The notes under the pieces: generated by a model | What the model was told of the DNA's origin: nothing | The model's database searches: none | What the model saw: the letters and a program-made list of their open reading frames with translations, nothing else | Assembly: GCF_027023865.1 (NCBI RefSeq) | Contig: NZ_JALVUC010000019.1 | Location: 1-46,385 of the forward strand | Origin: Thermococcus sp. | Lineage (GTDB): Archaea; Methanobacteriota_B; Thermococci; Thermococcales; Thermococcaceae | DNA: 46,385 nt | Reading direction: 5' to 3' | Position numbers and translations under genes: made by a program | Part shown: in pieces, positions 21,547 to 25,872 of the stretch | Layout: every line of letters starts with the position of its first letter | Numbering within the stretch: position 1 is the stretch's first letter

Positions 21547-22422
21547 TTACTCCCCCAGCTCCCTCATGAGCCTCTCTATCACGCCCTCCATAACCCCCCC
21601 GACCGTTTTTTCAAGCTCGACGTTCTCTATAATTGGAACACCGTGTTTTCTGGCCATTTTAACTATGTACTCCTGTACCTCAATAATCGAATCTATGTGC
21701 TCGAGGTAGTACTCCGCTGAGCGGGTACTGTAGAGAGAGCGCTCGTAGAAATGAGCCTCAAGGGCCTCTCTACTCCCCACGGTTATTACGTACATGAAGT
21801 CATGCTCGTCGGGTTCCACAAAGCCTGGGACTAGGTGTATCCCCTCCAAGACAGCGTTGAAGCCCTCCCTGTGGGTCCGCTCGAGAACCGCGTTGACGCC
21901 AACGGCCACGTGCCTCACTTGCTCCTCAAAGCCCCGAATCAGCGGCTTCCCTCCACTCACGGGGCCAACAGTTTTCCAGGCCAAAAAAGAGGATGTGTGA
22001 AGGTCTGGAAGCAGTTCAGGCGCTATTATCTTCCTCATTACCTCCCGTATTGTGTCCGTTCCTATGACACTCCTTATGCCAAGGCGAAAGGCAAGTTCCG
22101 TCGCGAGTGTTGACTTTCCAACTCCCGTCGCTCCTCCAAGGAGTATCGTTATCGGCACCTTCAAGCGTCTTAGCTGGCGCCAGAACAGATACCTCCGTGC
22201 TGCCTCTTTGAGGCCATGGTTCAGCAGGCTCCCATAGGTAAGCCCCCTTATCTCCTCTGTGGTTACCACGTGCGCCTTCCGTCCCTCGAGCGCCTTCTGG
22301 ACTTCAGTGGCGATTATGTATGCAACGCCGACATCCACCCCGGCAAGGGTTATGGAGCGCGTGAGGATTCCACGCGAGAAGGGCAGCTTGATCCTCCTTT
22401 CAGGGTCTGTAACGACTATCAT
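21547..22422 (-). CDS. pgk2: 2-phosphoglycerate kinase
   Basis: 291 residues. It phosphorylates 2-phosphoglycerate to 2,3-bisphosphoglycerate, the first step of cyclic 2,3-diphosphoglycerate (cDPG) synthesis. An ATP-cone-like N-terminal part ([30 protein letters not shown]) precedes the P-loop [15 protein letters not shown] and the [13 protein letters not shown] segment, then [10 protein letters not shown]. Its start overlaps the stop of the cDPG synthetase gene (ATGA), so the pathway is co-transcribed. It converges with the phosphoesterase gene, stop to stop. Confidence 0.93.
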
Positions 22423-23717
22423 CTCCTTCCCCCCAGGACAGACTTTCCAAGCTTGAGAACGGCTGTGCGGAGGTCCTTCCCGTCGATGTTCATGGGCTCG
22501 TTGTCCATGTATATAACCTCAAGATCTTTCTCAAGCGCCCACCTCGTCACAACGTCAACGGCGGCCGCTTTAAGCTCCACCGCAACCGCATCGAGACTGG
22601 TGAATCCCCTCAAGTCACGGAGAAGGGCAGGTCTGTTCGAGAGGTTTCCCGAAACAGCGACAACCTCCGCCCCGAGGGCTTCAATCCCATCCTTTGCCCT
22701 CTCAACAGCCCTTCCAGAGGTCATGACGAGACCGAGCCGCTTCCCGCTGACGTCCCCTAAGGGCCTCGGTCTAAAGGCTGTGAGGTGGATATCCGCCGAT
22801 GGATTGATTCTCCCAATTGTCCCCAACAGCTCAGCTCTCTTTCTTTCGTCAGCAAGGTCAGCCATGGTGACAACGACGATATCGGCTAAAGAAAGCCTAA
22901 AGGGACCAAAGTACCCCCTGAGAAAGTCTATCCTCTGAAGTGCACCCACCGCCAGGATGTAGCCGTCAGCCCTGTAAGCGGGAAACGTCGCACCGCTTCC
23001 CTCGAAGATTACGAGATCGTTGGGCAGGCTCTCGGCGAGCTTGACGCCTTCATCGATGACATCGAAGAAGGGAAATCCCGCCATCCCCCCACCACAGCGC
23101 CTGCACCCTATCGTGGTCACCCTCGCAGTGAGGGCATCCTCGATATGGTCTGAGGCGGCATGCCTTCCACTCCCGGCGAGTTCGAGCAAAAATTCCGGGG
23201 TTATCCCAGTTCTCCCCCTTATTATCTCCGGCTTCTCCGGGCCGCCGCGGCTCATGGTTACCACGACGGGGTTTGCAATCTTCCTCAGTACTCTAGCCAC
23301 AAAGCCGCCGATGGCCGTTTTTCCAACGCGCTTCCCCGTGCCTATGACGGCAAGGCTCGGCTTTCTAGTTCTCTTCAGCGGCTTTGGCTTGAACTCAAAG
23401 TCCGCCCCCCTATATGCAACGCCGTGGAGCATGCAGAGCGTCGCTATCTTAAATCTGTCCTCATAGGTCAGAACAGGCTCGTCGCTCAGGTCAACCACCT
23501 CATCAATGTCGTTCTCTTGGAGTGCCCTTGTGAGGGCCTCAGAGTAATCCGTGCCAGTGTAGAATGGAACGCCAAGCCTCGCTTCGATCTCGCCAACGCT
23601 TCCTATCTTCTCGCTCCCTCCTAAGAAGACGACGCAACAAACCCCTCCAAGCATCTCAACGGCCCAAGTTGTAACATCTGGATAATGTTCGCCGTCGATG
23701 AGGACGAGTCTCCTCAT
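22419..23717 (-). CDS. cpgS: Cyclic 2,3-diphosphoglycerate synthetase
   Basis: 432 residues. It closes 2,3-bisphosphoglycerate into cDPG with ATP. The start is [14 protein letters not shown]; the P-loop-like segment is [16 protein letters not shown]; and [25 protein letters not shown] and [10 protein letters not shown] are family segments. I chose the ATG at 23717, preceded by GGTGAT; the longer frame to 23780 runs into the promoter region shared with the divergent histone-fold gene. cDPG is a thermoprotectant and phosphate store in hyperthermophilic methanogens; its level in this organism is unknown. Confidence 0.93.
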
Positions 23718-23804
23718 ATCATCACCGCTCATATTACCACAAGGAGGCTTTAACCTTTTGGAGTGCAAAGCACTACCCATCAGCGCAGGGAGGATGCAGG
23801 AAAG

Positions 23805-25060: not shown

Positions 25061-25699
25061 TCACTCCTCATCGGGATAACACAGGTACCTGTAGGGGCAG
25101 AACTTGCAGGCGTAGGAGTACTCACCCCTCGGCGGCTTCCCCCGTTCGTAGGCCTTTTTGACCCTGTAAAAGTGTCTCAGCGTCTCCTTGAACAACCTAT
25201 CGTCGTAGGGCACCTCAAAGGCCTTAAAGTTCGGTCCTTTGACTATGGGAAAGCGAGAGAAGTCGATTTTGCTTATGATCTTCATCGGCTCGTCGTGGAG
25301 CTTGATGTAGTAGAGGTAGCCGTATTCCGCCTCGGCCCAGCGCATATAGATGTTTAGCTGAGCCATGTGATAGTCGTAGGGCTTACCTGGGAGGCTGGTC
25401 TTTCCCTTAATTTCGATAGGGAAGTCACCTATGGCGTCTATCCTTCCGTGTATCTCAAAGCCTAGTCTGTTGGATCTCAGTATTAAATGCTTCTCAAGCT
25501 CGAAGCCGAAGCGCTTCTTCAGGATATCCCCGAGGACATTGTGGGTGTTGATGCCCTGGTTTAACCTGATTTTGACGAACTCGGGCCACCTCTCGGGATA
25601 ACCCTTGAGCCTGAAGTATACCCTCCTTGGACATATTAAAGCCTCGCTCGCGTAGAACTCCAGGAATCCGTCGTTTTCATTGTTCCCGTTGCCGCTCAT
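25061..25699 (-). CDS. Cas4-like PD-(D/E)xK nuclease with Fe-S cysteines
   Basis: 212 residues. Cys23 (LICPRRVYF) and the C-terminal triple CKFCPYRYLC give the four cysteines of the Cas4/RecB 4Fe-4S site. The nuclease core shows HGRIDAIGDFPIEIKGK (Asp, then Glu-x-Lys) and HMAQLNIYMRWAEAEYGYLYYI, the QxxxY motif. Start at ATG 25699 after GGAGGGAAATCG. There are no cas1, cas2 or CRISPR repeats in the window, so it is a solo Cas4-family protein, probably in DNA repair or acting for a remote array. Confidence 0.8.
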   Translation of the reverse strand: MSGNGNNENDGFLEFYASEALICPRRVYFRLKGYPERWPEFVKIRLNQGINTHNVLGDILKKRFGFELEKHLILRSNRLGFEIHGRIDAIGDFPIEIKGKTSLPGKPYDYHMAQLNIYMRWAEAEYGYLYYIKLHDEPMKIISKIDFSRFPIVKGPNFKAFEVPYDDRLFKETLRHFYRVKKAYERGKPPRGEYSYACKFCPYRYLCYPDEE

Positions 25700-25751
25700 C
25701 GATTTCCCTCCAGGAACGGGGCGGGTCATCGGCCCGCGAACCTCGCCACCC

Positions 25752-25810
25752 CTGCGTCAGCTAATACCGACGTCATCACCCATCAGACTGGGCAAGGGTC
25801 GTCATCCGCT
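25752..25810 (-). ncRNA. C/D box sRNA guiding 2'-O-methylation
   Basis: The minus strand has all four boxes at canonical archaeal spacing. Box C is ATGACGA (one change from RTGATGA), then 12 nt, D' CTGA, 3 nt, C' GTGATGA (perfect), 12 nt, and D CTGA. GCG before box C can pair with CGC after box D. The D' guide is CCCTTGCCCAGT, predicting methylation of the G in target ACUGG*GCAAGGG. The D guide is CGTCGGTATTAG, predicting the U in CUAAU*ACCGACG. I could not assign the targets to rRNA or tRNA positions from memory. It lies between cas4 and a hypothetical gene. Confidence 0.85.
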
Positions 25811-25872
25811 TGGGGAGTTAAGCCTAACCCGGCATTTAAACCTTTGGGAGAAACGAGGGGAGAAAATGAATA

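Follow-up and report, generated by a model that had tools for sequence, protein, structure and literature searches.

The window, a stretch of 46,385 nucleotides from Thermococcus sp. (contig NZ_JALVUC010000019.1), encodes on its minus strand a C/D box sRNA with two guides that are predicted to direct methylation of two nucleotides in helix 18 of 16S rRNA, and that is probably transcribed within the leader of a Thermococcus cas4 mRNA. We assign this reading a probability of roughly 0.9. Judged by its letters, the segment at 25754–25809 (GCGGATGACGACCCTTGCCCAGTCTGATGGGTGATGACGTCGGTATTAGCTGACGC) is a genuine C/D box guide RNA of archaeal type, a kind that Rfam already contains. Its four boxes follow in order on the minus strand: the 5' arm of the terminal stem, GCG (25809–25807), the C box AUGACGA (ATGACGA; 25799–25805) with one departure from RUGAUGA (U to C), the 12-nt D' guide CCCTTGCCCAGT (25787–25798), the D' box CUGA (CTGA; 25783–25786), the 3-nt D'-C' spacer TGG (25782–25780), the C' box GUGAUGA (GTGATGA; 25773–25779), the 12-nt D guide CGTCGGTATTAG (25761–25772), the D box CUGA (CTGA; 25757–25760) and the 3' arm CGC (25756–25754). 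The initial annotation had described these boxes at 12-3-12 spacing with a short terminal stem, and each element is read directly, with guide, spacer and guide measuring exactly 12, 3 and 12 nt. The terminal stem GCG/CGC is of the form required for a C/D kink-turn, and some few relatives have a weaker stem. The free sRNA is predicted to fold onto its own guides.

Rfam family RF00095 (snoPyro_CD) matches the full length of 25754–25809 on the minus strand with 46.5 bits (E=1.1e-6 over the window; gathering cut-off 45 bits), which ranks first among the seven sites resembling RF00095 in this 1.92 Mb genome. Together with the pairing of both guides to the genome's own 16S rRNA and the conserved boxes, the match bears out the proposed archaeal C/D sRNA. 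Because Rfam finds it, the accompanying remark that genes of this kind are often missed in annotation is weak here. A chance arrangement of box-like words is conceivable insofar as short degenerate motifs are common, but it is practically negligible in view of the Rfam match and the paired targets, and it is refuted by the conservation across genera described below. The genes for L7Ae, Nop5 and fibrillarin are all present in this genome. Other C/D sRNAs found in the same genome are sR23, snoR9, sR46, sR34, and sR60 and sR1, which lie 90 nt apart; in the literature we found no sR number for exactly the sRNA described here. The boxes, guides, targets, conservation and linkage of this sRNA, and the core protein genes, can all be read from sequence.

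We compared both guides with the single 16S and the single 23S rRNA genes of the genome and predicted the modified nucleotide by the N+5 rule. The D' guide forms 11 consecutive pairs (10 Watson-Crick and one G-U) with positions 444–454 of its own 16S rRNA, predicting Gm448, and the D guide forms 11 consecutive pairs of the same composition with positions 474–484, predicting Um477. In our own alignment, counted from the invariant GGUAAUAC, these nucleotides correspond to G505 and U534 of E. coli. They are exactly the G and the U that the initial annotation had named, and its check for a match of at least 9 bases in rRNA or tRNA was passed with 11 pairs per guide. Neither 12-mer is perfect: the D' guide has a mismatch at its far end and a G-U pair beside the box, and the D guide has one G-U pair and an unpaired first base. 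In the genomes of genus g3, probably Pyrococcus as inferred by us, the D' guide is commonly GCCTTGCCCAGC, which is a perfect 12-base complement of the 16S target in the present genome. The best rRNA matches of both guides fall in 16S rRNA, only 29 nt apart, and the next best rRNA matches have at most 8 Watson-Crick pairs. In 23S rRNA, neither guide has a match comparable to those in 16S rRNA; among 30 of the 45 tRNAs nothing exceeds 8 Watson-Crick pairs, one higher score falling in a flank. In 8.3% of trials for D' and 1.8% for D, a shuffled guide gave a match as strong as the observed one, so that the D' match on its own is not rare (8% of shuffles). Two matches of this strength within 100 nt of each other occurred in 2 of 20,000 shuffling trials.

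G505 and U534 flank the 530-loop pseudoknot of helix 18, and because G505 belongs to the 530-loop pseudoknot strand, the two duplexes are expected to bracket the pseudoknot. Predicted archaeal C/D targets are known to cluster in helix 18 (PMC4644070). One alternative is that the sRNA serves chiefly to chaperone the folding of helix 18 and that methylation is incidental; the guide duplexes span both sides of the pseudoknot, and such double guides have been proposed as chaperones (PMC4644070). We consider this unlikely: the D and D' boxes are intact, both duplexes conform to the N+5 geometry, and a chaperone role has no separate support. In the 3.2 Å cryo-EM model of the P. abyssi 30S subunit, helix 18 carries no listed ribose methylation, and the list of ribose-methylated nucleotides comprises only Am373, Cm1376 and ac4Cm250 (PMC7005279); under-detection in this model is likely because so few ribose methylations are listed. 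For Thermococcales 16S rRNA, the sRNA would bring two further predicted methylation sites, both in the helix of the decoding centre.

The same sRNA is located directly 5' of a cas4-like gene in 85 genomes from five of six genera, and the sixth has it elsewhere. Thermococcus leaders were located by DNA similarity, and for the other genera, designated g2 to g6, the sequence upstream of cas4 was fetched. The sRNA leader was recovered from 57 of the 61 Thermococcus genomes; the remaining four either lack the cas4 gene itself or have it truncated at a contig end. All loci of g3 (9/9, one cut by a contig end), g4 (11/11), g5 (7/7) and g6 (1/1) carry the sRNA upstream of cas4, and three g2 genomes possess it away from cas4. 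The linkage of the sRNA to solo cas4 is conserved across most of the Thermococcaceae genomes checked. When all bacterial and archaeal species were scanned for the pattern, the sRNA turned up only in records of Thermococcus, Thermococcaceae, Thermococcales or Thermococci. Among 22 distinct sRNA sequences from five genera, the C-box core, the guide cores and the C' and D boxes show no or almost no variation, and the D'-C' spacer and the base adjoining D' vary. Invariant boxes and guides, maintained in the other genera, next to a drifting spacer are the constraint pattern to be expected of a working guide.

Some loci have features of their own. At three g3 loci (L105, L106 and L113) the H/ACA RNA HgcF (RF00058) lies on the opposite strand, a short distance upstream of the sRNA. 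At the g2 loci L184, L185 and L186, the sRNA is followed by a perfect GC hairpin, different from the Thermococcus hairpin described below but at the same spacing. L067, L068 and L069 represent a second, related C/D sRNA with the guide CCCTTCCCCTCC and a D-like box CCGA upstream of another gene, and the copy L069 also matches RF00095.

The downstream gene (25061–25699, minus strand) encodes a Cas4-like nuclease of 212 amino acids from an ATG preceded by the Shine-Dalgarno (SD) sequence GGAGGG (25706–25711, minus strand), which is read directly. The protein scores 101 bits against TIGR00372 (cut-off 65 bits) and 26 bits against PF12705, and RecB-like and cysteine motifs are visible in its sequence. 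None of the neighbouring genes tested, which encode a metallo-beta-lactamase fold protein, Taw2, AOR and TGT, is a cas gene, and in this respect the designation "solo" given in the initial annotation fits. All 74 good-quality Thermococcaceae genomes have a Cas4-like gene. We rejected a longer cas4 reading frame from the ATG at 25729, which would overlap the hairpin described below, because several relatives have lost this upstream extension or have it out of frame; a protein-coding reading of the hairpin was dismissed on the same grounds. Elsewhere in the window, two adjacent ORFs at 21547–23780 on the minus strand resemble a 2-phosphoglycerate kinase and a cyclic 2,3-diphosphoglycerate synthetase; no Pfam or NCBIfam model matches the latter.

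A TATA-like box, TTTAAA at 25835–25840 (minus strand) with a BRE-like AAAG before it, is a consensus match only. In 53 of the 57 Thermococcus loci such an element precedes the C-box region, counted from the first G of GGATGA, by 28–34 nt, and a TATA-like word in the spacer between the sRNA and the start codon was found in none of the 57. The Thermococcus cas4 mRNA therefore most probably starts at the 5' end of the sRNA or close to it. This deduction of a shared start does not hold for g4, because a TATA-like word is found inside its sRNA-cas4 spacer. A study on T. kodakarensis detected 54 C/D RNAs and places 11 potential snoRNAs in 5' UTRs (PMC4247193).

We propose that a promoter at the 5' end of the sRNA drives transcription, that in Thermococcus the sRNA would form part of the solo cas4 mRNA's 5' leader, and that a mature RNA of about 56–60 nt would have to be processed out of this leader. 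The sRNA would assemble with L7Ae, Nop5 and fibrillarin, and the resulting C/D sRNP would direct 2'-O-methylation of 16S G448 (G505) and U477 (U534); simultaneous binding of both sites may keep helix 18 open during assembly. The transcription start, processing, methylation and chaperone action of the sRNA are what we infer here.

Downstream of the sRNA, outside the coordinates of the initial annotation, we identified a 35-nt hairpin (GGGGTGGCGAGGTTCGCGGGCCGATGACCCGCCCC; 25718–25752, minus strand) between the sRNA and the SD. Neither this hairpin nor the conservation of the cas4 linkage figured in the initial annotation. The hairpin is composed of a 7-bp NC stem, C.C at 3b.3n, GA/GA, the bulge GAU and a 2-bp C stem, and with its 3-nt bulge, tandem G.A pairs and C and NC stems it is by pattern a kink-turn. 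The hairpin is present in 56 of the 57 Thermococcus loci and, according to our model of it, absent from the other five genera. The sole Thermococcus locus without it (L066) has a tRNA gene directly preceding the sRNA. Across the loci GA/GA is invariant, the 3b.3n position is free, the bulge reads NAU, the C stem is short and the NC stem covaries. Among 32 distinct sequences, 97.9% of the stem cells pair and three pairs change on both sides, and the covariation score was reached by none of 500 shuffles. The kink-turn pattern searched in the window alone was found once against 0.27 expected, which is not significant; it is conservation and covariation that make the case for the kink-turn. With the model, each genome yields a single strong copy, in every instance at the sRNA-cas4 locus, and this is the sole strong copy in the present genome; we therefore discarded the idea of a multi-gene regulon. 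An H/ACA reading of the hairpin was likewise rejected on inspection, with no Rfam H/ACA match, no room for a lower stem and a variable 3' flank.

L7Ae represses its own mRNA through a kink-turn in the leader (PMC5539422, PMC6298567), and L7Ae bound to the additional kink-turn in Thermococcus might couple C/D sRNP maturation, as the state of ribosome assembly, to translation of the solo Cas4, one transcript then having two outputs that L7Ae could couple. We put this forward as a tentative idea with modest odds. The hairpin has a strong 7-bp GC stem and is predicted to need no protein for its stability, and the SD (25711–25706) is 6 nt downstream of the stem and is not sequestered within the hairpin. 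Because the SD is outside and the stem is strong by itself, we do not file the hairpin as an L7Ae switch. The hairpin could instead be a processing or stability element of the sRNA, for example a 3' boundary marked by L7Ae, rather than a regulator of cas4. Its near-fixed spacing directly after the sRNA stem is consistent with such a role, as is the different GC hairpin at the same spot in g2, whose sRNA is not next to cas4. However, g3–g6 retain the sRNA without such a hairpin, and the g2 hairpin has no kink-turn features, is at an apparent convergent gene end and may be unrelated. We hold a processing element to be a minority possibility, and about as likely as an L7Ae switch.

A further reading would make the whole leader mainly cis-regulatory, with L7Ae on the C/D kink-turn and on the hairpin near the SD repressing cas4 translation and the guide role secondary or lost. 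The conserved position directly upstream of cas4, the conserved kink-turn 6 nt from the SD and the analogous repression by L7Ae of its own mRNA (PMC5539422, PMC6298567) are compatible with it, and Jager et al. propose that some 5' UTR "snoRNAs" are cis elements (PMC4247193). A pure cis element, however, needs neither invariant guide cores nor guides matching rRNA, the three g2 genomes keep the sRNA apart from cas4, and the SD outside a hairpin predicted to be stable without protein differs from the l7ae switch. We regard this reading as improbable and favour a guide RNA that is carried in the cas4 leader.

The sRNA itself is ordinary in kind and belongs to a known family; its linkage to cas4 and the Thermococcus-specific kink-turn are less ordinary, and for both we found no description in the main texts consulted. 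The conserved coupling of sRNA and cas4, with the lineage-specific kink-turn between them, offers a lead both on how solo Cas4 may be expressed and on how L7Ae may control mRNAs outside its own protein set. Compared with RF00095 snoPyro_CD, the Pyrococcus C/D box sRNA, the present sRNA has the same box order, length and terminal stem, whereas its C box has the U to C change and its score is barely over the cut-off. The 5' UTR snoRNAs of T. kodakarensis also are C/D RNAs within an mRNA leader, and the main text of that study names neither cas4 nor a second kink-turn in the leader (PMC4247193). The l7ae mRNA leaders have, as here, a kink-turn with a GAU bulge and tandem GA near the SD (PMC5539422, PMC6298567), whereas the hairpin in Thermococcus precedes solo cas4, follows a C/D sRNA and has a strong 7-bp GC stem with the SD outside. 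The crenarchaeal double guides Tte sR114, Pca sR28 and Sac sR115 place two guides on nearby helix 18 sites as in our sRNA, with A535 and G515 as the paired targets (PMC4644070). The sRNA described here is predicted to target U534 and G505 instead, the likeness drawn here being one of target layout.
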